Shown: one piece after another, positions 7,501-43,098 of the stretch | How the letters are laid out: every line of letters begins with the position of its first letter | How positions within the stretch are numbered: position 1 is the first letter of the stretch | Assembly (NCBI GenBank): GCA_963682025.1 | Contig: OY821520.1 | Coordinates: 4,812,705 to 4,876,704, forward strand | Direction: 5' to 3' | Length of the DNA stretch: 64,000 nt | From: Cordilura impudica | Lineage: Eukaryota; Arthropoda; Insecta; Diptera; Scathophagidae | Translations under genes and position numbers: made by a program | Notes under the pieces: generated by a model | Seen by the model: the letters and a program-made list of their open reading frames with translations, nothing else | Databases searched by the model: none | Told to the model about the DNA's origin: nothing

Positions 7501-10500
7501 TTCAATACCTTTCATCCTATGGCCGATGAAAGCTTATGTGCCAAATTTCATCAACACATATTTATATTTGCGACCTCCAGTTTGATTACAAGCTTTACAT
7601 GGACACACAGACGGACGGACGGACGGACATCGTTAAATCTAATCAGATAGTGATTCTGATTCGGTCGGTATAATTAAAGATGGGTCTAGGTCAAATATTT
7701 TTGGTAGTTACAAACAGCAGCACAAAGTCATTATACCCAAACCACATAGTGGTATAGGGTATAAAAATGAAAAATAAAAATTAAATATTGAAAACAAAAA
7801 ATGAAAAAAAAAATAAAAAAATAAAAATGAAAAATAAAAAATGGAAAGTAAAAAATTAAAAAATAAAAAATAAAATATAAAAAATTAAAAATTAAAAATA
7901 TAAAATTAAAACTAAAAAATGAAAAACGAAAAATTAAAAATTAAAAATAAATAATGAAGAATGAAAAATAAAAATTTAAAAAAAAATGAAAAACGAAAAA
8001 TGAAAAAAGAAAAACGAAAATTGAAAAACGAAAAATTAAAAATTAAACTATTGAAATAATAAATATTTTTATATTAGCAGAGCCTTTGCAATTGACTGCT
8101 ATAAGTGATACACAAATGACGCGCTCTGTTTGATTTTAAAAAACTGCCATACTAGATGCTTACACATCTCCCTGTGATCGGACTCACATAATTTTTTTAC
8201 ATGGATACATCAATAAAAATTCTTGAGTTATAGCTAAAAAACTAAGCAAACAAATATAAAGATAAGGACAAAATATAAAAGGTAATAAAAAAGGTTGGCC
8301 TGAGAACGGCAACTCCTTTGGAGGTTTTATTATACTGGCCTAGTACTTTCAACCTGACTTCCCAGATAATAACTCCAAAATTGTTCACCAGTATAATCGT
8401 ACGAGACATGAAGTACTTAGTTAACTAAAGAACAGCTGTTTATTGTATATACTTTAAAAATATACTTAGTTTCTGAGTATTCTTTATCTAGTTTTTAGGA
8501 TTATTCCATTTTCCACTCAATTTAAATTTAATATGAATGAGTAATACTCGAATGTTTAGTATTATAAAAAAAATAAGTAAGAAAATTATAGTCGGTCAAG
8601 ACCGCTTATTGGATACCCTATACCATGCGTTTAGAGAATTTGTCTTAGGTCCAACTAATTGGGTATAAAAAATAAGCATAACCCAAATATAAGCGATGGA
8701 AGCTTATATACCAAATTTCATTAAAATATATTCATATTTGCGACCTGTAGTTTGATTAGAAGGTTAACATGGACACAGAGACGGACAGACTGACGGATGT
8801 ACACTATAATGAAAGATGGATCTAGGTCAAATATTTTTGGTAGTTACAAACAACAGCAGAAAGTCATTATATCCTAACCGCCATACTGGTATAGGGTATA
8901 AAAATCACTTATGCGTAGCATAATATACACTTTTCAGTTTTAGACAGTTTTACATTAAATTAAATTAAATTAATTTAAGGAATACTATATCTTAATCTTA
9001 GTGTTTAGTATAAATTTAAACAGGTAATTTAATATTATGTCAGCATCCCTAAAGCTAAAAAAATAGCAAATAAATAATAATGAAATTGTTATTTAAATTC
9101 ATGTGTTGGCTTCGATGCTAATTACTAACATTACTAACATATAGACTTACACAACTTACAGACTTAGCCAAAAAATAAAATCACATTTAATTAGTATTCA
9201 ATTCCTTTACTACTATGGTTGAGCTAGATAATTAACATATTTGATTCTTCCACTACAGATGCTGAACTCAAGGAACGTCTTGTGGCCTATGTAAAGAAGG
9301 AAGTCAAACAACTGATGGAAGAAGCTGTTACTAAAAAATATATACATGAAGAAAGTAGTTCAGTCACATCGCTTTGCGGCGCAGTGGAAGCCTGTCTTAG
9401 TCATGGTCTGCGAAGGAGAGCTTTGGGTCTTTTTAAAACATCATCTACAACCGCTCTGATACAGAAGATAGCCAAGTCATGTCCAGAAGCTGATTATGTG
9501 AGTCATCGTTTATTGGAAATAGAATTTGCAAACGAATGTACGACGGTAACGGGTAAGCGTTCTTCTTCGAGTAGCGATAGTATTATTAAGCCGAAACTGT
9601 TGAATAAGGGTAGCAGTAGTTCGGTAACAACGATAAATACAGTCTCCATAAGTTCGTCATCCAATAGTCCTGTGGTCAAGTGAGTATTACTAGCTTAACG
9701 ATAGATTTTTCCCAGCTTCTGGACAGAAAAATGCTTTAACAAAGCTCGTTTTACTCACAAGGTATTTGTGGATACGCGTGGCTTTGTACGAGAAACGCTT
9801 GGCCAAGATTATTGAACATTTGGTGAGCAATGCTAATAATTACTATGATCGTGATGCGCTGGTCGCTGATCCGGATTATGGTTCTATACTGAGCTCACTG
9901 TTGGTTGGTCCATGTGCATTAGAATTTACTAGAGCAAAAACAGCCGATTATTACTGGTCTGATCCACCGGCTGACGAATTAGTAAGTATAAGTCCGATAA
10001 GCATTTTGAGCAATTATTTTAATATTTCTCAACTTGAAAATAGTTTTAATCTTTTTCTATGTTGTAGTAGTATGAATTCCGCAAAGTTAAGCGGTTATTA
10101 ATATTTTTACTACCCGTATTACCTAAAAATATACAACAATTTGTCGAAAGTCGACTCAGAAAATGATTTTAATAACATCAGTATGAACAACATAGTATTT
10201 CTAAATTGTTGAGAATTGTTATTGTTGAAATATTCAGTTCTCCGGTTAACCATTGATTTATATTTTTTTATTCTTTAGGTTCAAAGACATCGCATTAGCT
10301 CAGGCAATCGTACACCGCCAACATGTCATCGCCCTATTATAAATTTCAAACGAAGTCTGCATACGAGTTCTGAAGATACCAGTAGTGGTTCATTTAAGGC
10401 CAGCTCTCCGGCTAGTGTTGCCAAAGATTATGTAGAGTCTCTACATCAAAATTCGCGTACCACATTACTTTATGGCAAAAACAATGTTCTGGTATTACCG

Positions 10501-13500
10501 GTGAGTTATTAATTTTATCTATTACAGAGAGATATTCTAAGTGTCTATTCCATTGCAGAAGGATGTCGATGAACCCATGCCTGGTTATTTAAGCCTTCAT
10601 CAAAATGTCCAATCATTGACCATCAAATGGACACCCAATCAATTGATGAATGGCTATACAGACCATGACGGTAGCGATATGAGCTCTTTCTGGGCTTATG
10701 CTCTCAACATAAATGTCGATGAAATTGTTTATGTTCATTGTCATCAAAATCGAGGCGAAGATACGGGCGGTACTATAATTTTGGTAGGACAAGATGGTGT
10801 ACAAAGACCTCCAATTCACTTTCCCGAAGGTGGTCATATGCAAGCATTTCTAAGTTGCTTAGAAACTGGACTGTTGCCGCACGGTCAATTGGATCCACCA
10901 CTGTGGTCACAAAGGGGCATTGGTAAAATGTTTCCTTGGCCCAAAAGTGTGCGACGTCGAATTCTACCATCTGTTATGGAATCTACTGATGAAACACCCA
11001 TCGATTATGTCTTCCGAGTTGTTAGTAAAAGTCAACATGAAGAGTTCTGTAAGTTGAATTGAATAATATTTGAATATTGGAAAGAACTTTTAAATTCGTA
11101 ACATTTAATTCAATGTAATTAGTGGCTACTCATCCGATTCTTGAATTGGGACGTACTAGCCCCAGACGAAAACATTTGGGTAGTTGCTCGACAACAGGCA
11201 GTAGTGATTGTTCTAGTAAAAGTTTATCCATGGATCAAAGTACAACTGATCCACCAACGGTAAGTTAATATTTGCTTTGTATGTACATCGCAAGATTCTT
11301 ATTTTGACAATTGTCAATTTTAGATTCAGGTTAGTCAAACAGCTAGTATTGAACTAGTTTGTTCGACTATGAGACGTCAAATTATATCTAGAGCATTTTA
11401 TGGTTGGTTGGCCTATTGCAGACATCTATCGACAGTTAGAACTCACTTGTCGGGTTTGGTAAATGGACGAATAACACCAGACTGTAAGTCAAAGAAATAT
11501 TACTTCAAACGAGAGAAGATAATTTTTATATATTTCAGTGGCTGCAAATGAATCGGGTTTGACTAAGGAAAAGTGGGAGGCTTTACATGATAATGGTGTT
11601 ATTACTAGTAACGAGGAACTGTTTCGTCTGGTATACTTTGGCGGCGTAGTTCATGATATTCGCAAAGAAGTGTGGCCATATCTACTGGGACATTACAGGT
11701 AATTATAGTTCAAATCCAAAAAAAAAAAAAAAATTTGCAAATACGATTTCAGTGGCTTTTAATTCCAATAAATAGTACCTATATTGAAAGTAGAGAAACT
11801 AAAACATAAGTTTGTTAACCATATTCCAAAAAAAAAGCCGTTATACGGTCTTTAGCTGCCTAAAATCCTGATGCATACTTTTCTTGTTTGCAAATGAATC
11901 TACCAGATGGTTTTCTTTTCAAAACAGACAGACATTATATGTATATTTGTTGTGGGGTATAGCCACCGGTTTCGACAATGTTTTTAAATTCTTCAGGATA
12001 GTTATTTGCCGCCTCAACATCTGCAATTGCTGCTTCTCCAGATATTTTTATATTATGGATAATGATTTCTTAGATAATGCTTGTGCTTATCGCAATATTT
12101 TTTAGGGGAATTCCCAAATTAAAGAACATTGTTCGTAATTGTGAAATTTTCATTCGTAAAACAAATTTTGTACATTACGAATGATGTTCGCACTTTCGAA
12201 ATTTCGTAAACCGAGCCTTCGTAAATCGGGAGATTACTTTATATATACTTATATTTATACGAGTATATTTTGTTTTAATGGGGCTTTATTTGCTTTCGAT
12301 TATTTAATTGTCCTAGTATAATGTAAAATATTTGAGATCTTACTATTTTAGAACAGATGTTAGTTACACTGTGGAACATTTTCGGGGCGGTAAGTACTAG
12401 GCCAGTATAGTAGTACCTTTAAAGGGTTCGGCGTTCTCAGGCCAAAATTTTATTGCTTTTTATATTTTTTCCTCGGAATAGAAAAAAATATCATTACATC
12501 TATAGAGCGTATGTTATTATTAAACAAACAAATTTATATTCTAATATAAAAAATATATAAGAGGTAAAACAAAATTATGTGAGTCCCATCACAGGGAGAT
12601 GTGTAAACATCTAGTATGGCACCTTTTTAAAATCAAACAGAAAGCATAATTTATGTATCACTTATAGCAATCAATTACAGGGGCTCTGCTAATATAAAAA
12701 TATTTATTATTTCGTTTTTCATTTTTGATTTATTGTTTTATTTTTATTTTTATTTTTTATTTTTTATTTTTTATTTTTTTATTTTTATTTTTATTTTTTA
12801 TTTTTTATTTTTTATTTTTTATTTTTTAATTTTGCATTTTTCATTTTTATTTTTAATTTTTTATTTTTCATTTTTTATTTTTATTTTTTCAGTTTTCATT
12901 TCTCATTTTTCATTTTTCATTTTTGGTTTTTTATTTTTTATTTTTTACTTTCCATTTTTTATTTTTAATTTTTTATTTTTCTTTTTTCATTATTTATTTT
13001 TAATTTTTTATTTTCCATTTTTTATCGTTTTTAAATTTTATTTTTTATTTTTAATTTTTCTTTTTTAATGTTTTATTTTTCATTTGTAATTTTTCTTTTT
13101 CATTCTCATTTTCATTCATCTTTCATTTTTTGTTTTTCATTATTAATTTTTCGTTTTTCATTTTTTACTTTTCATTTTTCTTTTTTCATTTAAAATTTTT
13201 CATTTTTTATTGTTCTTTTTTAGTTTTTTATTTTTCTTTTTAATTTTTCGTTTTTCATTTTTTATGTTTCATATTTTATGTTTCATTTGTTATGTTTATT
13301 TTTTTATTTTTCATTTTTTCTTTTCCATTTTTCATATTTTTTTCTTTTTAATTTTTTATTTTTCGTTTTTCATTTTTACTTTTATTTTTAATTTTTCATT
13401 TTTTATTTTTCTTTTTTCATTTTTCATTTTTCATTTTTCATTTTTCATTTTTCATTTTTAATTTTTCATTTTTATACCCTAGGCCACTATGTGGTTTGTG

Positions 13501-16500
13501 CTGCTGTTTGTAACTACCAAAAAAATTTGACCTAGACCCATCTCTTATTATACTAATCGACTCAGAATCACTTTCTGAGTCGAGATAGCGATTTCCGTCC
13601 GTCCGTCCGTCTTTCCGTCTGTGTGCCCTTGTAAACCTTGTAATCAAACTACAGGTCGCATTATGAATATATTTGGATAAAATTTGGTATATAAGCGTTT
13701 ATCGGCCATAGAATGAACGCTGTTGAAATCGGTGAAATTCGGTCCATGTTCAGACCTAGTCCCGATACAAATGACCCCTATGAAATCGACATAAATTGCT
13801 ATAAGATCCAAATTATCATACAGATCTCAGGCAAATTGGGTTTGTATATGCTTATTATATCCATTAATCAGTAGTCCAAAAATAATCTTTATAGGATCAT
13901 TTTTAGTCATAGGTCCCATATAGATCTTCACTTAAATCTATCAAAACACAAAAATATGGCACAGATTTTTCTCAAATTTGGCTTGTATATATTTTTTAAA
14001 AATATAAGTGACTTTACCAAATATGGTTAGGATCGCTCCATTTTTCAAATGCTTTACCCGATTTGGAATTTCTCATCCTCCAGAATGAATTTTGTACAAT
14101 GTTATAAGCCATCACCGAAATTGAGATTGATTGGCTGCACTTAATTTAAAAATTAAAATTACTTTGTTACACTCTTTTTTGGCTGCAGTGAAAATATGTT
14201 TTTAATATTTGTTAATCTTAATCAAATTGCTTTTAATTTATATTTTATTTAGCTTTGGCTCTACCATTGAAGAACGTCAGAAATTGGATGACACTAGCAA
14301 GCATTATTATGAGACTATCATGAGTGAATGGTTGGCTGTTGAGGCTATTGTTCGTCAAAGAGAGAAAGAAAAAAATGCTAAAGCATATGCTAAGATTTCG
14401 GCTGAAAATAAACGTAAAGGTGTAAATGCTGCTGGTAAACAGTTGTGTTGTCAGACCGAACTGGAGCCAGCTGATATTGAAAATGATGTGTTTGATGATC
14501 ACGACTTTTCTGATATCTCTGATCCTGGCATTGATTTTGATGATGAGATTATTACAGATATTCAAGAAGAAAAAGATTCGGGTAATTGTGAAGATGAAGA
14601 GGAGGGTGAGGAAGAAAGTCTCGCAAAAGAATATAGCGAAGGTCCAGTACAAAATACAAATCCAGATGAACATAAAGTTATAGCAAAAGAACAAGAACAT
14701 ATCGATTATGAAGAAAATGTTAAAAAATATTCAGAAGATCCTCAAAACGAGTTCATTAATATGGAAAATAAAGATGACGAAAGCAAGAATGATACAAATG
14801 AACAACAGAATTTAGTATTTGAATTTGAGGAAATGGAACCTCTTGCATTACAAGAACACTGCTTTGCAGTAGCCGAACCTGAGAGTGGACTTACACCCGA
14901 ACAAGGCGGAGTATTGCTGTTAAGTATTAAAAGTTCTCCTTCGACTTCATCTTACGAAACCGTTGGCAATGAATTTACTGAAATGTTAGAAATGGCAAAT
15001 AATTTTAACGATATAGAAGAATTCGCAGAATCAACTAAGCCAGACAACACTCAGCAAGGTGAACTGATTGAGGAAACAACAAAAACAAATGAAATCGATC
15101 AAGAGATTGTGGAAGAAGAAGCCGAAGAAGCTCTCGATCTAGAAACCGAAGAAGACGAGGAAGATGGTGCGGATGTCTTTGATGAAAATGTAGAAATTGG
15201 AAATTATACTCGTAAATATCATAGTGTGGATGACCTTCGAAATGAATTGACGAATCAGACTCATGCGGTCATAATCACTGAAGCAGCCTCGAATGATGCT
15301 TTAGAATGTACTGAAGAACCCAACGATGATACATCTCGCAAAACAAGTTTAATATCGCCCATGAATGAAGATATAACAGTAGTGGCATCACTGGATGCTT
15401 TACAAGAACCCAAATCCACTTGTGTTTCACCAGCCAGTTCAAATGGTGGCGTTTATAGTGTAAGTTTTATGAATTAAAAAAAATAAACTCAATCATAAAT
15501 ATCAGTAAAATGTTGTTAATTTGTTTACAGTGTGAATTTTTAGAAAGTTTTGCTTTAAACTTACATCGTATCGAAAAAGATGTACAGCGCTGTGATCGTA
15601 ACTATTGGTATTTTGCAAATGAAAATTTGGACAAACTGAGAAATGTTATAACCACGTGAGTAACTTATATGATAGACCTTACTTTAATTTTCGAATTGTT
15701 CTATAAACGTATCCTTATTTTTGTGCAGTTATGTCTGGGAACATTTAGATGTTGGTTACATGCAAGGCATGTGCGATTTGGTGGCCCCTCTGCTCGTCAT
15801 TTTTGATGATGAAGCTTTAACGTATGGTTGTTTTTGTAAGCTCATGGAACGTATGATTGAAAATTTTCCAAATGGTGGTGCCATGGATATGCATTTTGCA
15901 AACATGAGGTAAGTTTTGTAGTACTCGTAGTTGTGTATTTAACTGAAAGTCAGATCTTTATTAATAGAAGAAAAACTAGATAAAAATTGAGACGATTTTT
16001 ATGCCCTACACCAGGGTAAAAACTAAGCACATGAACATTAAGAACAAACGGTCATAAATAAAAAGTTTAACCTGAGAACGGCAAACTGTTTGGAGGTTTT
16101 ATTATAATGGCCTGACTTGGCATTTCTCACCTCCCAGAATGTCAAATTAACCCTTTAGGGCTGTTATGAAGTGTAAACATCTATACACGCGGGGGGATAA
16201 AAATCTATTTCACAATACAATCACAAAAACAGCGTAACATGTAAGACGTAAGACAAAATCGGTGTAACTTGTGATTGTATTGGGGAAAAAATTATGATAT
16301 ATAGTAATCTGTTTGAAAATGAAAAATGAAAAATAAAAAATGAAAAACGAAAATGAAAAATAAAAAATAAGAAATGAAAAATGAAAAACGAAAAATAAAA
16401 AAAATGAAAAACGTAAAAAGAAAAATGAAAATTGAAAAATAAAAAATGAAAAATGAAAAATAAAAAACGAAAAACGAAAAACGAAAACTGAAAAATAAGA

Positions 16501-19500
16501 AATGAAACATCAAAAATGAAAAAATGAAAAACGAAAACCGAAAAATGAAAAATCAAAAACGAAAACCGAAAAATAAAAAATAAAAAATGAAAAATGAAAA
16601 ATGGGAAATGAAAAATGAAAATTAAAAAATTAAAATGAAAAATAAAAAATAAAAATGAAAAATAAAAAATGGAAAATAAAAAATTAAAACTGAAAAATGA
16701 AAAATGAAAAATAAAAAATGTAAAATTAAAAATGAGAATAAAAAACGGAAAAAAAAAAATGAAAAATGAAAATAGAAAATGAAAAGAAAAAATGAAAAAT
16801 GAAAAATTAAAATTAAAATTTGAAAAATAAAAAATAAAAATTAAAATGAAAAGTGAAAAATAAAAAAGACAAAATCGGTGTTACTTGTATTTGTATTGGT
16901 GAAAAATTATGATATGTAATAACCTGTTTGAAAATAAAAAATGAAAAATGAAAAATAAAAAATGAGAAATGAAAAATCAAAAACGAAAACCGAAAAATAA
17001 AAAATGAAAAATGAGAAATGGGAAATGAAAAATGAAAATTAAAAAAGTAAAGTGAAAAATAAAAAATAAAAATGAAAAATAAAAAATGCAAAATAAAAAA
17101 TTAAAACTGGAAAATTAAAAGTGAAAAATAAAATATGTAAAATTAAAAATGAGAATAAAATATGTAAAATTAAAAATGAGAATAAAAAAATGAAAAAAAA
17201 AAAATGAAAAATGAAAATAGAAAATGAAAAATAAAAAATGAAAAATTAAAATTAAAATTAAAATTTGAAAAATAAAAAATGAAAATGAAAATGAAAAGTG
17301 AAAAATAAAAAAGACAAAATCGGTGTAACTTGTATTTGTATTGGTGAAAAAATTATGATATGTAATAACCTGTTTGAAAATAAGAAATGAAACATGAAAA
17401 AAGAAAAATAAAAAACGAAAAACGAAAAATAAAAATAAGAAATGAAACATGAAAAATAAAAAATGAAAAACGAAAACCGAAAAATGAAAAATAAAAAATG
17501 AGAAATGAAAAATGAAAAACGAAAAATAAAAAATGAAAATTGAAAAATAAAAAAAGAAAAATGAAAAATAAAAAACGAAAAATGAAAACTGAAAAATAAG
17601 AAATGAAACATGAGAAATGGGAAATGAAAACTGAAAACTAAAAAATTAAAATGAAAAGTAAAAAATAAAAATGAAAAATTAAAAATAGAAAATAAAAAAT
17701 TAAAACTGAAAAATTAAAAATGAAAAATAAAAAATGTAAAATTAAAATTGAGAATAAAAAATTAAAAAAAATGAAAAATGAAAATAGAAAATGAAAAATA
17801 AAAAATGAAAAATGAATAATGAAAAATTAAAAATTAAAATAAATAAAAAATCTAAAGATAAAAAACAAAAAATGAAAATAAAATATGAAAAATAAGAAAT
17901 GAAAAATAAAAATGAAAAATGAAAAATAAAAAATGAAAAATAAAAAAATAAAAAATAATAAATAAAAATAAAAATTAAAAATTAAAAATTAAAATTTAAA
18001 AATTAAAAATTAAAAATTAAAAATTAAAAATTAAAAATTAAAAATTAAAAATTAAAAATTAAAAATTAAAAATTAAAAATTAAAATTAAAAATTAAAAAT
18101 AAAAAAACTAAAAATTAAAAATTAAAAATTAAAAATTAAAAATTAAAAATTAAAAATTAAAAATTAAAAATTAAAAAATTAAAAATTAAAAATTAAAAAT
18201 TAAAAATTAAAAATTAAAAATTAAAAATTAAAAAATTAAAAATTAAAAATTAAAATTTTAATATTAAAAATTAAAATTAAAAATTTAATAATAAAAATTA
18301 AAAATTAAAAATTAAAAAATTAAAAATTAAAATTAAAAATGAAAAATAAAAAAATTAAAAATTAAAAATTAAAAATTAAAAATTAAAAATTAAAAATTAA
18401 AAATCAAAAATTAAAAATTAAAAATTAAAAATTAAAAATTAAAAATTAAAAATTAAAAATTAAAAATTAAAAATTAAAATTTAAAATTAAAAATTAAAAA
18501 TTAAAAATTAAAATTTAAAAATTAAAAATTAAAAAATTAAAAATTAAAAATTAAAAAATTAAAAATTAAAAATTAAAAAATTAAAATTAAAAATTAAAAA
18601 TTAAAAATTAAAAATTAAAAATTAAAAATTAAAATTAAAAATTAAAATTAAAAATTAAAAATTTAAAAATTAAAATTAAAAATTAAAAATTAAAAATAAA
18701 AATTAAAAATTAAAAATTAAAAATTAAAAATTAAAAATTAAAAATTAAAAATTAAAAATTAAAAATTAAAAATTAAAAATTAAAAATTAAAAATTAAATA
18801 TAAAAATTAAAATTTAAAAATTAAAAATTAAAATTTAAAAATTAAAATTAAAAATTAAAAAATTAAAAATTAAAAATTAAAAATTAAAAATTAAAAATTA
18901 AAAATTAAAAATTAAAATTAAAATTAAAAATTAAAAATTAAAAATTAAAAATTAAAAATTAAAAAATTAAAAATTAAAAATTAAAAATTAAAAATTAAAA
19001 ATTAAAAATTAAAAATTAAAAATTAAAAATTAAAAATTAAAAATTAAAAATTAAAAATTAAAAATTAAAAATTAAAAATTAAAATAAAATTAAATTAAAA
19101 ATTAAAATTAAAAATTTAAAATTAAAAATTAAAAATTAAAAATTAAAAATTAAAAATTAAAATTAAAAATTAAAAATTAAAAATTAAAAATTAAAAATTA
19201 AAAATTAAAAATTAAAAATTAAAAAATTAAAATTAAAAATTAAAAATTAAAAATTAAAATTAAAAATTAAAAATTAAAAATTAAAAAAATTAAAAATTAA
19301 ATTTAAAATTAAAAATTAAAAATAAAAATTAAAAATTAAAAATTAAAAATTAAATTAAAAATTAAAAATTAAAATTAAAAATTAAAAAATAAAAATTAAA
19401 AATTAAAAATTAAAAATTAAAAATTAAAAATTAAAAATTAAAAATTAAAAATTAAAAATTAAAAATTAAAAATTAAAAAATTAAAAATTAAAATTAAAAT

Positions 19501-22500
19501 TAAAATTAAAAATTAAATTAAAAATTAAAATTAAAATTAAAAAATTAAAAATTAAAAATTAAAAATTAAAAATTAAAAATTAAAATATAAAATTAAAATT
19601 AAAATTAAAATTAAAATTAAAAATTAAAAATTAAAAATTAAAAATTAAAAATTAAAAATTAAAAATTAAAAATTAAAAATTAAAAATTAAAAATTAAAAA
19701 TTAAAAATGAAAATAAAAAATAAACAATAAAAATAAAAAAATGAAAAGTGAATAATAAAAACTTAATAATAAAAAATTAAAAATGAAAATAAAAAAAAAT
19801 TAAATATAAAAAAAAAAAAATTGAATAAAAAGTAATAATAATAAAAAATAAAACAAAAATAAAAAAATTATGAAAATAAAAAATTAGAAATAAAAAAAAA
19901 TTAAAAATAAAATATAAAAAATGAAAAATAAAAAAATTAAAAATAAAAAATTAAAAATGAAAAACGAAAAATTAAAAATAAACCGTTTGAAATAATAAAT
20001 AACAATAAATATATTTATATTTCCCACCTAACAGGTTATATATATATAAAAAAATTTTTAATCATAGAAATAAGCAAATCAGTGCATTTAAATATGCTGT
20101 TAACTTTTTCATTCCAATCAATGCCTGCTATGATGTCGAATATATTCGATAAAAACAGGGAAAGGTTTAGCGAGCCCCTGCATTTTAGCTATAAGTTATA
20201 CATAGATGACGCTTTCTCTTTGGTTTTAAAAAAGTGCCATAAAAAAATCTTTAATTACTAGATGTTTACACATCTCCCCTGTGACCGAACTCACAAGATT
20301 TTTTTTTAGTGTCGCGTCCAATGACCAAATATCACGTTTTGTTATACTGCAAACTTTACCGCAGTTTTTATAATTTGTTTCAACAGAGTTGTTTTTTTTA
20401 GTAGGATATAACTAAGTACATCGTTAAGTTTAATTCTGTTCCAATATCTTTATAATTTTTACCATTTTTCACTTTTTCTATTATTAATTCCTGAATATCC
20501 CTTGAAATTATTTTTCCACGTGGCATTTTTATTTTTTTGAAATTCTATTAACCTTTATTAGTTAACACAACGCTTAGACACACATAACTAAATTAAATAC
20601 TCAAAAGTAATTAGAATTTATGTTTAAATAACCGAACTTTTTATATAGTACGAAATTTTAGTGGTCAATTAAAAAATCATATTTCTAAGGGACTTTTATA
20701 AAACCAGGTTTATTAATGAAATGTTATCTGTCTTTAACAAAATTTTCCTACATGAACAAATTCCATCCAGCTTCCATAAATCTATACTGATACCTCTTTT
20801 CAAAAAAGGTGATCCCAATTTCCCATCAAACTATCGAGGGTTATCGCTGATTAATACCTCATGTAAAATATTTAATACCATTATACTGAATCGTTTAACG
20901 GAATGGATAGATCGTAACATGATTCTGAATGAATTTCAAGCCGGATTTAGAAAGAATTATTCAACCGTTGACAACATTTTTAACCTCGTTAATATTGTGA
21001 ATTTAATCAAAGCAAACAATAATAACACATATGCTTTCTATGTTGATTTTTCGTGCGCATTTGATACGATTCCTCGTAATAGTTTATTTTACAAGCTCTC
21101 ATGCCTTGGTATGTCGTCGAAAATAATAAGAATTTTACAGCACTTGTATGAAAATACGGAAAGTTGTATTTGGGATGGAAACTCTTATTCTGATCCATTT
21201 GCAGTTGAAATAGGTGTAAAGCAGGGTTGTATATTAAGCCCCCTATTAATCTCATTATATGTTAATGATTTGGCTGATGAGTTACCTGGCGGTGTAAATA
21301 TTGCGGAGGTTAATGTTAAAATACTGCTCTATGCCGACGACCTTGTTATATTATCAGATACTCCAACAGAATTGCAAAAAGTGATTGATTGTTTATACTA
21401 TTATTGTTCAACGTGGTCTTTGAAAGCTAATCTAGATAAATCTAAAATAGTGGTATTTCGTTCCGGTACTAGAATTTCTTCAAATTTAAACTGGGTTTTT
21501 GGTGGTGATAATATTGAGATTGTAAGCAGTTATAAATATCTTGGTGTAGACATTACATATAATCTCGCCTTTAGAAAACACTTGAACAATAAATTGGCAG
21601 CCTCGAAACTGGCGATAAACTCTACTTGGTACAAATACATAAACAATCCGCAAATCTCACAGAATAATAAGCTTAAAATATTTCAAGCGGCATCCAGATC
21701 TATTATGTTATATGCAGCGCAAGTGTGGGGATATATGAAATATGACGAGGTTGAAAAACTATATAGATTTTTTATTAAAAAAATGTTGTATCTACCTACC
21801 ATTACACCAAATTACATTTTGTATATAGAAACAAACCTGGAGTCTCTATACGTATCTACCTTAAGACTTCACCTAGGCTATATTAATAAAGTATTAAGTA
21901 TGAATCCTCACAGATTACCTCGTATTTTGGCATTAAAAATTATAGAACAAAATATTTGTTGGGCTAAAGAGTGGGAAAATCTTTGTCAACATATACAGTT
22001 TACCCCTGATAACTCAATATCTCCACTTTGCAAACAGTGGAAACCTATATTGGACCAACTCAAACTCAAGGAACGTAATAATTACATAGAAAATGCAAAA
22101 AGTTCACAATTTCATGATCTATATTCTATACTGGATTACAATGTTTCATCATTATATACTTCAAATTTTTCTCCACGCACAGTCAGTTTAATAATAAGGG
22201 CTAGAGGTGGCTTGTTAGATTTGAATGCAAGGTCTTTCAAAATAACACTGCTGGTATTTGTACAATGTGCAATTTAGGTGCTTCAGAAAATACTTTTCAC
22301 TTTATTGGTGTTTGCCCATTGTACAAAGAATTTAGAATACAATATTTTGGTAAAACCATACTAAATTTGAATGAAGTTATATGTATACTAAATGGCTTAA
22401 ATTTTTTCTCCCTGTATAAATATATAGAAGTTTGTTTAAAATATAGAAGATTTATTTTAAATGAATTTGTTCCATGAAAATATTAACTTATAATTTATCT

Positions 22501-28391: not shown

Positions 28392-28825
28392 CTGTTTAAA
28401 AAAAAATTGTGCGTCGGATCACAGGGGAGATGTGTAAACATTTAGTAATTAACGAGTTTTTTATGACATTTTTTTAAAATTAAACAGAAAGCGTCATCTA
28501 CGTATCACTTATAGCAAAAACTGCAGGGATCTGCTTATATAAAAATATCTATTATTATTTATTATTTCAACCGGTTAATTTTTTATTTTTCATTTTTTAT
28601 TTTTTATGTTTCATTTTTTCATTTTAAATTTTTTGTTTTTAATTTTTTATTTTTTATGTGTCATTTTTATTTTTCACTTTTCATTTCTTATTTTTCTGTT
28701 TCCATTTCTTATTTTACATTTTTTATTTTTTATTTTTCATTTTTCAGTTTTTATTTCTTATTATTTATTCTTATTTTTTATTTTATATTTTTTATTTTTA
28801 ATATTTAATTTTTAATATTTAATTT

Positions 28826-29052
28826 TTAATTTTTAATTTTTAATTTTTAATTTTTAATTTTTAATTTTTAATTTTTAATTTTTAATTTTTAATTTTTAAT
28901 TTTTAATTTTTAATTTTTAATTTTTAATTTTTAATTTTTAATTTTTAATTTTTAATTTTTAATTTTTAATTTTTAATTTTTAATTTTTAATTTTTAATTT
29001 TTAATTTTTAATTTTTAATTTTTAATTTTTAAATTTTAATTTTTAATTTTTA
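28826..29052. repeat. (TTTTTAA)n array, left segment
   Basis: About 32 nearly perfect heptamers leading up to the ribozyme-containing island. Confidence 0.95.
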
Positions 29053-29120
29053 TTTAAATGGTGCGTGGTAAAGAAGAAGAAAGCATATATTTCAATAATT
29101 CATAACTGCACTGTATTCTT

Positions 29121-29161
29121 AATCGGACCGGTTTCTGGCATTTCAGCCTTCATCAGCGATT
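29121..29161 (-). ncRNA. Hammerhead ribozyme motif (predicted, dimer-type)
   Basis: The minus strand reads AAUCG (stem I), CUGAUGA, A-GGC-UGAAAU-GCC-A (stem II), GAAA, CCGG (stem III), UC, then CGAUU (stem I). Stem I is five perfect pairs. Stem III with flanking A/U is ACCGGU, self-complementary and loopless, as in hammerheads that work as dimers. The cleavage triplet is GUC, giving a cut between 29126 and 29125. The base of stem II has an A-A mismatch, which may weaken it. Confidence 0.6.
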
Positions 29162-29655
29162 TATTGAACATTGTGATAATTGTTATGTTTTAATTGAATA
29201 GGTTGTTTCTATATGAAAATTTTTTCTACTTAGGGCGGCCGTGAGGTTTTGAACCGTGAACTTTCACATACACTCGCACTTGCACTTTTTGGTCAGCGCT
29301 TTAACACACTCACCTAAAGTCAGGCCTACGAGCAGTGTGGTTAGTTTTCAGTTTTCGTACCATACAGCTTTACTTTGTATTAATTTCAGAAGATACAACT
29401 CTGTCCAAACAAACAATCGTTATTTTTGAATTTTTGAATATTTTTGCATTTATACTTCTAATTTCCACTATTCTCAGTTTTCGTAAGAGTTGTCATATGT
29501 GATGTACGGTTTTTGTACATACCTACATATGCACTTTACATATATTTGAGATGACGCTGTGAAGCGAAGAAAAATTTTTTGGTTTGTTAGATTTATCGTC
29601 ATTTTTCAGACATATTGCAATTACTACTGTAATTAATATGCAATTTTAATTTTGT

Positions 29656-29725
29656 TTAAATGGTGCGTGGTAAAGAAGAAGAAAGCATATATTTCAAAAA
29701 TTCATAACTGCACTGTATTCTTAAT
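29656..29725. repeat. Second copy of the 71-bp direct repeat
   Basis: Matches 29053-29123 with one mismatch (TTCAAAAATT for TTCAATAATT). It lacks the hammerhead and passes straight into the TTTTTAA array. Confidence 0.9.
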
Positions 29726-31030
29726 TTTTAATTTTTAATTTTTAATTTTTAATTTTTAATTTTTAATTTTTAATTTTTAATTTTTAATTTTTAATTTTTA
29801 ATTTTTAATTTTTAATTTTTAATTTTTAATCTTTAATTTTTAATTTTTAATTTTTAATTTTTAATTTTTAATTTTTAATTTTTAATTTTTAATTTTTAAT
29901 TTTTAATTTTTAATTTTTAATTTTTAATTTTGAATTTTGAATTTTTAATTTTTAATTTTTAATTTTTAATTTTTAATTTTTAATTTTTAATTTTTAATAT
30001 TTAATTTTTAATTTTTAATTTTTAATTTTTAATTTTTAATTTTTAATTTTTAATTTTTAATTTTTAATTTTTAATTTTTAATTTTTAATTTTTAATTTTT
30101 AATTTTTAATTTTTAATTTTTAATTTTTAATTTTTAATTTTTAATTTTTAATTTTTAATTTTTAATTTTCAATTTTTAATTTTTAATTTCTAATTTTTAA
30201 TTTTTAATTTTTAATTTTTAATTTTTAATTTTTAATTTTTAATTTTTAATTTTTAATTTTTAATTTTTAATTTTTAATTTTTAATTTTTAATTTTTAATT
30301 TTTAATTTTTAATTTTTAATTTTTAATTTTTAATTTTTAATTTTTAATTTTTAATTTTTAATTTTTAATTTTTAATTTTTAATTTTTAATTTTTAATTTT
30401 TAATTTTTAATTTTTAATTTTTAATTTTTAATTTTTAATTTTTAATTTTTAATTTTTAATTTTTAATTTTTAATTTTTAATTTTTAATTTTTAATTTTTA
30501 ATTTTTAATTTTTAATTTTTAATTTTTAATTTTTAATTTTTAATTTTTAATTTTTAATTTTTAATTTTTAATTTTTAATTTTTAATTTTTAATTTTTAAT
30601 TTTTAATTTTTAATTTTTAATTTTTAATTTTTAATTTTTAATTTTTAATTTTTAATTTTTAATTTTTAATTTTTAATTTTTAATTTTTAATTTTTAATTT
30701 TTAATTTTTAATTTTTAATTTTTAATTTTTAATTTTTAATTTTTAATTTTTAATTTTTAATTTTTAATTTTTAATTTTTAATTTTTAATTTTTAATTTTT
30801 AATTTTTAATTTTTAATTTTTAATTTTTAATTTTTAATTTTTAATTTTTAATTTTTAATTTTTAATTTTTAATTTTTAATTTTTAATTTTTAATTTTTAA
30901 TTTTTAATTTTTAATTTTTAATTTTTAATTTTTAATTTTTAATTTTTAATTTTTAATTTTTAATTTTTAATTTTTAATTTTTAATTTTTAAGTTTTAATT
31001 TTTAATTTTTAATTTTTAATTTTTAATTTT
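29722..31030. repeat. (TTTTTAA)n array, right segment
   Basis: About 187 heptamers with only a handful of substitutions (for example near 29831, 29932, 30170 and 30991). Confidence 0.95.
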
Positions 31031-31189
31031 TTATTTTTTATTTTTCATGTTTCATTTTCAAACAGGTTATTACATATTATAATTTTTTCACCAATGCAAT
31101 CATAAGTCGAAAATGATTTTGGAGGTATGGTTATTTGGTTAAATATACTTTTAATGGCCCATAGTGCCAGAATCGCGATGAACCCATGG

Positions 31190-36560: not shown

Positions 36561-37336
36561 ACATCTTCTAGGTAAATAAAAAAGTAAGAAAATGGCATTA
36601 GTGCATTACAACCTAAAATAATACATAAAAAATCAACTATACAAATGAATTCCCAGTATGTGTTTCCTTTACTACTTGCATTAGTGCATTGTTTGGTAAA
36701 AAAGGTATAAAAAAGGTATGATAATAAAAAAAAATCATGAGGTATGATAATAAAAAAAATGAGTCCTATCACAGGGGAGATGTGTAAACATCTAGTAATT
36801 AAAAATTTTTATAGCAGTTTTTTAAAATCAAACAGAAAGCGTCATCTATGTATCACTTATAGCAATCAACTGCAGGGGCTCGCTAACCCTTTCCCTGTTT
36901 TTATCGAATATATTCGACATCATAGCAGGCATTGATTGGAATGAAAAAGTTAACAGCATATTTAAATTTTGCACTGATTTGCTTAATTCTATGATTGAAA
37001 ATTTTTTATATATATGTATGAATTTAACCTGTTAGGTGGGAAAGTCCAGTTAAAAATCATATATGTCCGGCTTTATAGCCATAGCCATAGCCATATAGAA
37101 ATATTTATTATTATTTATTGTTTCAAACGGTTAATTTAAAATTTTTCGTTTTTGATTTTTGATTTTTCGCTTTTAATTTTTAGTTTTTTCATTTTTTATT
37201 TTTTGTTTTTCGTTTTTAATTTCTTATTTTTCATTATTTTACTTAAAATTTTTTATTTTTCTTTTTTAATTTTTTATTTTTTTTTAATATTTAATTTTTT
37301 ATTTTTCATTTTTCATTTGCGTTTTTTATTTTTTAT

Positions 37337-39346
37337 TTTGTATTTTGTATTTTGTATTTTGTATTTTGTATTTTGTATTTTGTATTTTGTATTTTGTATT
37401 TTGTATTCTGTATTTTGTATTTTGTATTTTGTATTTTGTATTTTGTATTTTGTATTTTGTATTTTGTATTTTGTATTTTGTATTTTGTATTTTGTATTTT
37501 GTATTTTGTATTTTGTATTTTGTATTTTGTATTTTGTATTTTGTATTTTGTATTTTGTATTTTGTATTTTGTATTTTGTATTTTGTATTTTGTATTTTGT
37601 ATTTTGTATTTTGTATTTTGTATTTTGTATTTTGTATTTTGTATTTTGTATTTTGTATTTTGTATTTTGTATTTTGTATTTTGTATTTTGTATTTTGTAT
37701 TTTGTATTTTGTATTTTGTATTTTGTATTTTGTATTTTGTATTTTGTATTTTGTATTTTGTATTTTGTATTTTGTATTTTGTATTTTGTATTTTGTATTT
37801 TGTATTTTGTATTTTGTATTTTGTATTTTGTATTTTGTATTTTGTATTTTGTATTTTGTATTTTGTATTTTGTATTTTGTATTTTGTATTTTGTATTTTG
37901 TATTTTGTATTTTGTATTTTGTATTTTGTATTTTGTATTTTGTATTTTGTATTTTGTATTTTGTATTTTGTATTTTGTATTTTGTATTTTGTATTTTGTA
38001 TTTTGTATTTTGTATTTTGTATTTTGTATTTTGTATTTTGTATTTTGTATTTTGTATTTTGTATTTTGTATTTTGTATTTTGTATTTTGTATTTTGTATT
38101 TTGTATTTTGTATTTTGTATTTTGTATTTTGTATTTTGTATTTTGTATTTTGTATTTTGTATTTTGTATTTTGTATTTTGTATTTTGTATTTTGTATTTT
38201 GTATTTTGTATTTTGTATTTTGTATTTTGTATTTTGTATTTTGTATTTTGTATTTTGTATTTTGTATTTTGTATTTTGTATTTTGTATTTTGTATTTTGT
38301 ATTTTGTATTTTGTATTTTGTATTTTGTATTTTGTATTTTGTATTTTGTATTTTGTATTTTGTATTTTGTATTTTGTATTTTGTATTTTGTATTTTGTAT
38401 TTTGTATTTTGTATTTTGTATTTTGTATTTTGTATTTTGTATTTTGTATTTTGTATTTTGTATTTTGTATTTTGTATTTTGTATTTTGTATTTTGTATTT
38501 TGTATTTTGTATTTTGTATTTTGTATTTTGTATTTTGTATTTTGTATTTTGTATTTTGTATTTTGTATTTTGTATTTTGTATTTTGTATTTTGTATTTTG
38601 TATTTTGTATTTTGTATTTTGTATTTTGTATTTTGTATTTTGTATTTTGTATTTTGTATTTTGTATTTTGTATTTTGTATTTTGTATTTTGTATTTTGTA
38701 TTTTGTATTTTGTATTTTGTATTTTGTATTTTGTATTTTGTATTTTGTATTTTGTATTTTGTATTTTGTATTTTGTATTTTGTATTTTGTATTTTGTATT
38801 TTGTATTTTGTATTTTGTATTTTGTATTTTGTATTTTGTATTTTGTATTTTGTATTTTGTATTTTGTATTTTGTATTTTGTATTTTGTATTTTGTATTTT
38901 GTATTTTGTATTTTGTATTTTGTATTTTGTATTTTGTATTTTGTATTTTGTATTTTGTATTTTGTATTTTGTATTTTGTATTTTGTATTTTGTATTTTGT
39001 ATTTTGTATTTTGTATTTTGTATTTTGTATTTTGTATTTTGTATTTTGTATTTTGTATTTTGTATTTTGTATTTTGTATTTTGTATTTTGTATTTTGTAT
39101 TTTGTATTTTGTATTTTGTATTTTGTATTTTGTATTTTGTATTTTGTATTTTGTATTTTGTATTTTGTATTTTGTATTTTGTATTTTGTATTTTGTATTT
39201 TGTATTTTGTATTTTGTATTTTGTATTTTGTATTTTGTATTTTGTATTTTGTATTTTGTATTTTGTATTTTGTATTTTGTATTTTGTATTTTGTATTTTG
39301 TATTTTGTATTTTGTATTTTGTATTTTGTATTTTGTATTTTGTATT
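37337..39346. repeat. (TATTTTG)n heptamer array, about 287 units
   Basis: Near-perfect 7-bp repeat; the only deviant unit I noticed is TATTCTG at about 37404-37410. Seven is not a multiple of three and the unit makes no stop in any phase on either strand. All six frames are therefore open (YFVFCIL on plus), giving long false ORFs. The purity points to very recent expansion. Confidence 0.97.
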
Positions 39347-39384
39347 TTTATTATTTTTTATTTTTTATTTTTTATTTTTTATTT

Positions 39385-39419
<35 letters not shown>

Positions 39420-39429
39420 ATATTTTATA

Positions 39430-39575
39430 TATTTTTTATTTTTAATTTTTAATTTTAAATTTTTAATTTTTAATTTTTAATTTTTAATTTTTAATTTTTA
39501 ATTTTTAATTTTTAATTTTTAATTTTTAATTTTTAATTTTTAATTTTTAATTTTTAATTTTTAATTTTTAATTAT
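39430..39575. repeat. (TTTTTAA)n short array
   Basis: About 20 heptamers that follow the TATTTTG array and a short TTTTTAT stretch. Confidence 0.9.
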
Positions 39576-39958
39576 TAATTATTAATTTCAATTTTTAATT
39601 TTTCTTTTTTCAATTTTTATTATTTATTTTTCATTTTTTGTTTTTCGTTTTTCATTTTTCATTTCTGATTTTTCATTTTTCAATTTTCATGTATCATAAT
39701 ATTTTATATTTCATTTTTTATTCTTCATTTTTCATTTTTCCTTTTTCATTTTTTTTTATTTTTCATTTGCATTTTTAATTTTTCATTTTTCATATTTCAT
39801 AATTTTTTATATATCATTTTTTAATCTTCATTTTTAATTTTTCATTTTTCCTTTTTCATTTTTGTTAATTTTTCATTTGTATTTTTAATTTTTCATTTTT
39901 TTACATTTTAAATTTTTCATTTTTCGTTTTTGATTTTTTATTTTTCATTCTTCATTTT

Positions 39959-40729
39959 TATACCCTATACCACTATGTGGTTTGGGTATAATGACTTTGT
40001 GCTGCTGTTTGTAACAACCAAAAATATTTGACCTAGACCCATCTTTAATTATACCGATCGAATCAGAAGCACTTTCTGAGTTGATTTAACAATGTCCGTC
40101 CGTCCGTCTGTGTGTCCATATAACCCTTGTAATCAAACTGCAGGTCGCAAATATGAATACATTTTGAAGAAATTTGGTATATAAGCTTTTGTCGGCCATG
40201 GGATGAACGCTACTGAAATTGGTGAGAATCGGTCCATGTTCAGACCTAGCCCCCATACAAATTACCCCTATGTAATCGACATAAATTGCCATAAGATCCA
40301 AATTGTCATATAGATCTTACTCAAATTGGGTTTGTATGCGTTCATTACATCCATTAATGAGTAGTTCAAAAATGATCCATTTGGCCCCATATAGAGCTGC
40401 TTCCCGATCTTCACTTAAATCAATCAAAAAACAAAAATATTGCACTGATTCTTCTCAAATTTTTTTGTATATATTTTTGCAAAATACAAGAGACTTTACC
40501 AAACATGATTAGGATCGATCCATTTTTGGACATAGTCCCCATATGGATATAGCATCCGATATGAACTTTTTCATATCTGCAGCCAAAAAAATTAATAATA
40601 ATCCCACTCAAATTTGGTTTTTGCTTATTTTCTATGTCCAGTTAGTTGGGCCTAAGAGATAGAGTTTCTAAACGCATGGTATAGGGTATCGTATAGTCGG
40701 TCTAGACCGACTATAATTTTTTTACTTGT
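39959..40729 (-). mobile_element. Hairpin/GGAC element, copy G
   Basis: Full-length, inverted. The right end is TATACCCTATACCACTATG and the 20-bp palindrome lies at 40694-40713. It is followed 7 bp later by copy H in the same orientation. Confidence 0.87.
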
Positions 40730-40736
40730 TCATTTT

Positions 40737-41527
40737 TATACCCTATACCACTATGTGGTTTGGGTATAATGACTTTGTGCTGCTGTTTGTAACAACCAAA
40801 AATATTTGACCTAGACCCATCTTTAATTATACCGATCGAATCAGAATCACTTTCTGAGTTGATTTAACAATGTCCGTCCGTCCGTCCGTCCGTCCGTCCG
40901 TCCGTCTGTGTGTCCATGTAAACCTTGTAATCAAACTGCAGGTCGCAAATATGAATATATTTTGATGAAATTTGGTATGTAAGCTTTTATCAGCCATTCG
41001 ATGAACGCTATTGAAATTGGTGAGAATCGGTCCATGTTCAGACCTAGCCCCCATACAAATTACCCCTATGAAATCGACATAAATTGCCATAAGATCCAAA
41101 TTGTCATATAGATCTTACTCAAATTGGGTTTGTATGCGTTCATTACATCCGTTAATGAGTAGTCCAAAAATGATCCCTTTGGCCCCATATAGAGCTGCTT
41201 CCCGATCTTCACTTAACTCTATTAAAAAACAAAAATATTGCACTGATTCTTCTCAAATTTTGTTTGTATATATTTTTGGAAAATAAAAGAGACTTTACCA
41301 AACATGATCAGGATCGGTCAATTTTTGGACCTAGTCCCCATATAGATATATCATCCGATATGAACTTTTGCATATCTGCAGCCAAAAAAATGAATAAAAA
41401 TCCCACTCAAATTTGGTTTTTGCTTATTTTCTATGTCCAGTTAGTTGGGCCTAAGAGATAGAGTTTCTAAACGCATGGTATAGGGTATCGTATAGTCGGC
41501 TAGACCGACTATAATTTTCTTACTTGT
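40737..41527 (-). mobile_element. Hairpin/GGAC element, copy H
   Basis: Full-length, inverted, in tandem with copy G and separated only by a few T/C/A bases. It has the longer GTCC tract (about seven units). The palindrome has lost one base (GTCGGCTAGACCGAC). Confidence 0.87.
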
Positions 41528-41608
41528 TCAATTTTCATTTTTCATTTTCAAACAGGTTATAACATATCATAATTTTTTCACCAATACAATGATAGATGTT
41601 TACACATC

Positions 41609-42437: not shown

Positions 42438-43098
42438 CATGTGTAAACTTCTATACGCGCAGGGGGTATATTTTTATTCCACAATGCAATCACAAAAACA
42501 GCGTAACATGTGAGACGTAAGACAAAATCGGTGTGACTTGTGATTGTATTGGTGAAAAAATTATGATATGTAATAGCCTGTTTGAAAATTAAATATAAAA
42601 AATAAAAAACGAAAAATGAAAAATAAAAAATGAAAAATGAAAAAAAAATTGAAAAATGAAAAATAAAAAATTAAAAACGAAAAATGAAAAATAAAAAATA
42701 AAAAATGAAAAATAAAAAATTAAGAATAAAAAATGAAAAATGAAAAATAAAAAATCAAAAATGAAAAATAAAAAATTAAAAAATTAAAATGAAAAATAAG
42801 AAATGAAAAAATTAAAAATGAAAAACGAAAAATGAAAAATGAAAAAATTAGAAATTAAAAATGAAATATGAAAAATGAAAATTAAAAAATAAAATAAAAA
42901 GCGAAAAATTAAAAAAATAACCGGTCAAAGTAAGAAGTAATAATAGATATTTTTATATTAGCAGAGCCCCTGCAGTTGTTTGCTATAAGTGATACATAGA
43001 TGTCGCTTTCTGTTTGATTTTAAAAAAATGGCATAAAAAACCGTTAATTACTAGATGTTTACACATCTCCCCTGTGATCGGACTCACATGATTTTTTC
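42438..43098 (+). mobile_element. Heptamer-core element, copy 7 (compact, complete)
   Basis: A useful reference copy of about 660 bp. The left end runs 42438-42585 (TGTGTAAACTTCTATACGCG, CAATCACAAAAACAGCG, AAAATCGGTGTGACTTGTGA). A core of only about 330 bp follows, then the right end 42916-43098 (CCGGTCA, GCAGAGCCCCTGCAGTTG, ACTAGATGTTTACACATC, CCTGTGATCGGACTCACATG). Confidence 0.82.

Follow-up and report, generated by a model that had tools for sequence, protein, structure and literature searches.

The window analysed here comprises 64,000 nucleotides (nt) of the genome of the scathophagid fly Cordilura impudica (assembly GCA_963682025.1, contig OY821520.1, positions 4,812,705 to 4,876,704 of the forward strand), and all coordinates below refer to it. 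Exons of a protein containing RUN and Rab-binding domains, presumably SGSM-like, lie on the plus strand at 9228-11059, as would be expected of an animal genome, and a 534 aa open reading frame (ORF) at 20673-22274 encodes a reverse transcriptase (PF00078), probably a LINE fragment, in which Pfam detected no GIY-YIG domain. Six regions (3385-8348, 12392-14045, 16171-20308, 28397-31121, 36752-41594 and 42441-43097) belong to one family of repeats whose members contain A/T-rich arrays with a 7-bp period; some members also hold internal units, each about 800 bp long, that are tandemly repeated between the arrays. The stretch 37141-39959 combines an array of 7-bp units with a long segment that is open in several frames on both strands and would encode low-complexity peptides. 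The ends of the family members (a subterminal inverted repeat and the 3' end) presumably resemble those of DINE-1/Helentron elements. The member at 28397-31121 carries, within its internal array, a non-coding unit with the following features:

28397-31121, minus strand: host repeat with the 7-bp TTTTTAA array that holds the unit; relatives lacking the unit lie at 16171-20308 and 42441-43097
29124-29725, minus strand (the sense strand of the unit): non-coding unit of 602 bp, from the predicted cut to the equivalent boundary of the upstream copy, repeat register 602
29655-29725, minus strand: 5' copy (upstream in the sense direction) of the 71-bp terminal repeat, with its 5' edge 2-7 nt downstream of the cut-equivalent position
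29563-29588, minus strand: unit positions 140-165, where the second (extended) class of 3' ends falls in other genomic copies; internal in the window copy
29121-29161, minus strand: predicted minimal type I hammerhead with a stem I of 5 bp, a stem II of 3 bp and a stem III of at most 2 bp
29125-29126, minus strand: predicted cleavage site after GUC (C17), placed by the established hammerhead rule
29053-29123, minus strand: 3' copy of the 71-bp terminal repeat, ending at 29053, which is 73 nt past the cut and within the more frequent of the family's two classes of 3' ends
29059-29070, minus strand: AC-rich 12-mer with the highest C content among those in the unit, immediately internal to the usual 3' end

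The preliminary description, made from the letters of the window alone, had reported a 71-bp direct repeat at both ends of an island in a TTTTTAA array, a minus-strand hammerhead core just upstream of one repeat, and an abrupt but fuzzy edge of the other repeat 2-7 nt from the base equivalent to the first base after the predicted cut, and these observations hold on re-examination. The two repeat copies are identical at 70 of 71 positions, the sole mismatch being T at 29096 versus A at 29698, and arrays adjoin both ends of the unit. The first base of the predicted 3' cleavage product is 29125, its equivalent in the other repeat copy is 29727, and that copy starts at 29725 or at most 5 nt inward of it; the uncertainty of 2-7 nt arises because ATTAA is common to the unit and the AAAAATT array. 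The size of 602 bp also agrees with the sites of the 3' signature across the genome and with tandem copies of about equal period (see below). The arrays beside the unit are the internal array of the host repeat rather than free satellite, and both flanks of the host repeat recur within the window. Relatives of the host repeat contain the array, and nowhere else in the window did we find the unit, which is therefore an insertion.

The unit has a GC content of 0.33 and contains no ORF: the longest stop-to-stop frame overlapping it spans 65 aa and lies on the other strand. A stop-to-stop frame of 29 aa crosses the hammerhead, and we considered translation of such a short frame, by analogy with the hammerhead at the ORF start of Penelope elements, but found no support for it. 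An RNA polymerase III promoter on the sense strand, in the form of a pair of A-box-like and B-box-like motifs, is likewise unproven; at equal thresholds, the window yields 17 such matches, 3 of them in the unit, all with one common B box, and neither cmscan nor ARAGORN detected a tRNA at this pair.

The minus strand from 29161 to 29121 can be folded as AAUCG-CUGAUGA-A-GGC-UGAAAU-GCC-A-GAAA-CCGGUC / CGAUU, where stem I is AAUCG/CGAUU and stem II is GGC/GCC, with an A.A mismatch on the core side of stem II in the usual place of a G-C pair. Stem III is formed by the palindrome ACCGGU, which alone can make only the 2 bp listed above, with a 2-nt loop, but could pair over 6 bp with a second molecule or unit. 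The motif thus has the CUGANGA and GAAA core, stems I and II and the UH at the cut that define type I hammerheads, but its stem II has no canonical basal pair and its stem III is not stable. The covariance search that the preliminary description had proposed gave no match to the Rfam hammerhead models, either at the gathering threshold over the whole window or with E-values up to 10 over 1,001 bases, and the complete hammerhead is absent from the minimum-energy fold computed without constraints. The absence of an Rfam match, the A.A mismatch and the nearly missing stem III would all be expected if the hammerhead were a chance resemblance. However, a relaxed hammerhead descriptor found a single site on both strands of the 64-kb window, compared to only 10 sites in 300 Markov-simulated windows. 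Furthermore, chance matches to the core (CTGATGA-N(8-22)-GAAACCGGTC) collected from viral and prokaryote contigs, 46 and at least 116 loci, never combined a stem I of at least 4 bp with a stem II of at least 3 bp (0 of the 162 core matches listed). The location of the motif next to the repeat boundary would be an added coincidence, and an axolotl hammerhead is likewise mismatched (U.U) at the base of stem II, as seen in an excerpt of PMC7229834. We accordingly regard a chance origin of the motif as quite improbable. Relatives of the unit itself were sought in the viral and prokaryote contigs, where two scans gave none; the further core matches there serve as chance background only.

The unit belongs to a large genomic family. 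A 30-mer signature from its 3' part, allowing up to 2 mismatches, matches 7,476 sites in the 1.49 Gb assembly (3,744 forward and 3,732 reverse), whereas the reversed control gave 0 and 0; the genome-wide search with the unit as query, also suggested at the outset, returned 1,642 candidate places, of which the best 40 were scored, with 131 matches in these. We examined two sets of copies. The best-scoring set consists of the window copy and the 39 other scored loci (L193-L231), a selection that disfavours inserts shorter than about 1.1 units. The length-unbiased sample consists of the first 20 clusters on one contig, C1 (L232-L251), supplemented by the 5' parts of L252-L257, which were picked from single hits only; it thus covers 26 of the 79 clusters built from 100 listed signature places, and leans toward less diverged copies because it was drawn from the first listed exact matches on a single contig. 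Positions in copies are numbered from the first base after the cut.

The copies share a distinctive anatomy. Of 90 segment 3' ends, 43 fall 70-90 nt and 32 fall 140-165 nt past the cut, with 15 elsewhere; in the 20 sampled clusters alone, the corresponding numbers are 15, 10 and 9 of 34. The commoner 3' end is about 73 nt downstream of the predicted cut. Tandem inserts extend to about 6 units, and copies occur as partial head-to-tail tandems similar to the pseudo-LTRs (pLTRs) of Penelope elements. Head-to-head inverted copies are present at 15 of the 40 best-scoring loci, and lie at most 60 nt apart in 6 of the 20 sampled clusters. Matches of at least 7 nt between the two flanks were found at 17 of 40 loci, compared to a mean of 12.7% and a maximum of 23% for shuffled flank pairs (40 shuffles); these matches may represent target-site duplications, but several of them are A/T-simple, and in the window copy such a duplication is not resolvable within the array. 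The family is dispersed and mobile, its members end at chosen 3' positions and are truncated at the 5' end, and they share the hammerhead motif.

Loss of the conserved core from other copies had been named in the preliminary description as evidence against it; most of the copies examined retain the core. In 133-137 copies of the best-scoring set, the letters of CUGAUGA and GAAA are invariant, and the commonest change near the catalytic letters, in stem II, affects 13 of 134 copies. This invariance is weak evidence for selection because the copies are young (mean divergence of 0.8% per site from the majority base), and in the same set the hammerhead is not unusually conserved, with 34% of 41-nt windows varying less. 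Among the 29 hammerheads aligned from the 20 sampled clusters, 22 are intact by a strict criterion for the core and 7, namely those of L232, L234, L236, L240, L250 (two) and L251, fail; the failure of L234 consists only of C17 changed to U, which hammerheads tolerate.

We propose, with a probability of roughly three in four, that the unit belongs to a large family of short retroelements that are non-coding, non-autonomous and of the Penelope type. Spread through RNA is well supported by the dispersed sites, the choice of particular 3' ends, the varying extent of 5' truncation and the flanking matches, so that this part of the preliminary description, mobilisation of a non-coding, hammerhead-bearing unit as RNA, stands. 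Under the proposed scheme, a putative Penelope-like reverse transcriptase/endonuclease, encoded elsewhere, would act in trans on tandem transcripts; cDNA synthesis would begin at an internal site just past the hammerhead and run upstream over one or more units until the end of the template or an abort. The terminal direct repeat would then be whatever spans the stretch from the 5' stop to the 3' start. In a minority of insertions, including the window copy, the 5' stop would lie at the predicted cut, as if the template had been cleaved beforehand; a template ending at the cut, combined with a start about 73 nt past the next cut, would produce a single unit with a repeat of about 72 bp, and this is the geometry of the window copy.

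The closest known systems are Penelope-like elements of the Penelope/Poseidon type, such as PAc of Anolis and Pen2a_Av of Adineta vaga. The unit shares with them the pLTR-like partial tandems, head-to-head copies, an optional 3' tail, 5' truncation, AT-rich targets and a minimal hammerhead without a real helix III. Unlike them, it lacks an ORF for a reverse transcriptase with a GIY-YIG domain and spans 602 nt only; given the absence of an ORF, it is not a Penelope element proper but, at most, a non-autonomous relative. The 15 of 90 segment 3' ends outside both classes also count against the Penelope type. Dimeric cleavage is reported for small Penelope hammerhead variants (Luense, Weinberg, Breaker 2017; Cervera, De la Pena 2014). 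As far as their partial descriptions allow comparison, these variants resemble the unit in the palindromic, very short stem III and in the tandem units.

The published systems below are cited from excerpts of the respective articles. In Adineta, Penelope elements combine pLTRs, which can carry non-coding sequence between them, with head-to-head copies, an optional 3' tail and microhomology at the 5' junction (PMC3846280). In Anolis, the reconstituted PAc has a hammerhead at the start of its ORF, two adjacent internal starts of reverse transcription, which explain the optional 3' tail, and AT-rich targets (PMC11167929). The extended tail of the unit, at about 70-80 nt, is longer than the 30-40 bp reported for Penelope-like elements. 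Several distances in the unit are close to those in PAc: an ATG within the hammerhead lies 28 nt before the cut, compared to 26 nt in PAc, and the 3' end of the window copy lies about 100 nt past this ATG, compared to 111-118 nt in PAc (PMC11167929). The AC-rich stretch at 29059-29070 is a possible counterpart of the AC-rich start of reverse transcription in PAc, although, unlike in PAc, no stem-loop is predicted there in the unit (PMC11167929). Among more distant comparisons, the interspersed hammerhead repeats of Aedes aegypti, as described, are also multi-copy, with a palindromic stem III and loop III suited to dimers (PMC3088659), and the terminons of bdelloid rotifers carry a Penelope-type hammerhead near the 3' end, as the unit does, but are giant telomeric coding elements (PMC6431247).

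The preliminary description had called the unit retrozyme-like. If it were an animal (non-LTR) retrozyme, tandem transcripts would self-cleave at two hammerheads, and the released 602-nt RNA would be circularised, reverse-transcribed and inserted. The unit is indeed non-coding, tandem and low in GC, with a type I hammerhead, its palindromic stem III is like those of dimeric hammerheads, and retrozymes are known in invertebrates including insects, with Penelope elements as likely helpers (excerpts of PMC7229834 and PMC7761336). However, the published animal retrozymes are tandem units of about 170-400 nt with canonical type I hammerheads, so that the unit is larger and has a weaker, stem-III-poor hammerhead; moreover, its head-to-head inversions and its two preferred classes of 3' ends are features of Penelope elements, and a circular template would not of itself direct the 5' end to the cut during reverse transcription. 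A retrozyme origin therefore appears unlikely, and 'Penelope-like' is the more apt term, because the inversions, the preferred 3' ends and the stem-III-poor hammerhead all match Penelope elements. Transfer of a satellite-like DNA repeat by DNA recombination or circles, with the hammerhead as a relic, would account for the tandem arrays, the head-to-head copies and the array-like sequence at both window junctions, but is highly improbable in view of the preferred 3' ends, scattered 5' ends and flanking matches at dispersed insertions, which are signatures of retrotransposition.

A further question, for a Penelope-type unit, is whether its 5' boundary is made by the ribozyme, as the preliminary description had suggested on the basis of the window copy. 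Across the copies examined, 5' ends are scattered over the whole unit, and most of them do not coincide with the cut; this is the distribution that the preliminary description itself had counted against its reading, and the notion that every 5' end corresponds to the cut is rejected. Positions 1-4, at most 3 nt from the cut, hold 8 of the 56 ends counted in the best-scoring set (L216 contributes two from a single junction, and the end of the window copy is included), compared to a chance expectation of 0.65 for a 7-nt window and 56 ends (p = 3e-7), a proportion that overstates the excess because the window copy was chosen for this feature, L216 is counted twice, and the window copy, L213 and L215 barely reach the length needed to score. 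The other near-cut ends are in L198, L200 and L227. Four of the eight (the window copy, L213, L215 and L227) adjoin other DNA, and the remaining four are at head-to-head junctions. In the length-unbiased sample, 2 of the 34 ends from the sampled clusters (a few of these 34, as in L233 and L242, being internal breaks due to insertions) and none of the 6 additional ends lie at most 3 nt from the cut, giving 2 of 40 (0.5 expected; p = 0.08). One of these, in L248, is doubtful, the copy being old (79% identity), and the end of L241 was reported at position 600, yet GTG precedes CGATTAAG there, so that this end may be at position 1. Altogether, 10 of the 96 pooled ends lie at most 3 nt from the cut. 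A second cluster, of 5 of the 96 ends (L217, L226, L230, L236 and L254), is found at unit positions 495-497 (29231-29233), beside a GC-rich stretch, and possibly reflects a stop of the reverse transcriptase. From these tallies, scattered 5' truncation is the rule, and an excess of ends at the cut is likely but not secure. The suggestion that the 5' end is the ribozyme product end is only partly supported and would hold for a minority of copies at best.

The ends at the cut might have been produced by means other than cleavage, namely, ascertainment, microhomology with AT-rich targets, or stalling of the polymerase at the folded RNA. We give this explanation about even odds. The window copy was selected for its near-cut end, and copies of query length or longer are favoured by the search; in the length-unbiased sample, near-cut ends are few. 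The cluster at positions 495-497 lies where no ribozyme is predicted. The window junction shares ATTAA with the array, and the unit contains 21 such blocks of at least 5 nt. The best-scoring set nevertheless retains 7 of 55 ends at positions 1-4 without the window copy, and, in L198, L200, L216 and L227, one near-cut end each belongs to an insert of more than 2 units, for which query length should not select. All 8 near-cut ends in this set are on the product side, at positions 1-4, with none at 595-602. Stalling should leave ends near position 6, where the outer edge of stem I lies, so that the product-side ends would better fit run-off at a cleaved end than a halt before stem I. Against this background, we put forward, as a tentative reading somewhat less probable than an origin without cleavage, that a definite minority of insertions were templated by RNA already cut by its own hammerhead, with the product end becoming the 5' boundary of the element. 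For PAc, in vitro insertion employed unprocessed RNA, no reads began or ended at the cut, and cleavage is not needed for insertion (PMC11167929).

Minimal hammerheads of Penelope elements and non-coding retrozymes with hammerheads are already known (PMC7229834, PMC7761336 and PMC6155905), and the excerpt of PMC7761336 describes the role of the former as unknown. Within a limited check of the literature, we found no match for a gene-free, 602-nt unit of the Penelope type that numbers in the thousands and has some of its 5' ends at the cut. The family suggests that the Penelope machinery can carry short non-coding units to high copy numbers. The abundance of gene-free copies also makes the question of hammerhead function countable, given that 5' ends either peak at the cut or do not. 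If our tentative reading is correct, the family would provide genomic evidence that a Penelope-type hammerhead serves during retrotransposition, in contrast to the behavior of PAc in vitro, and, with its thousands of signature sites, would be a system for testing whether RNA cut by its own ribozyme templates insertion.
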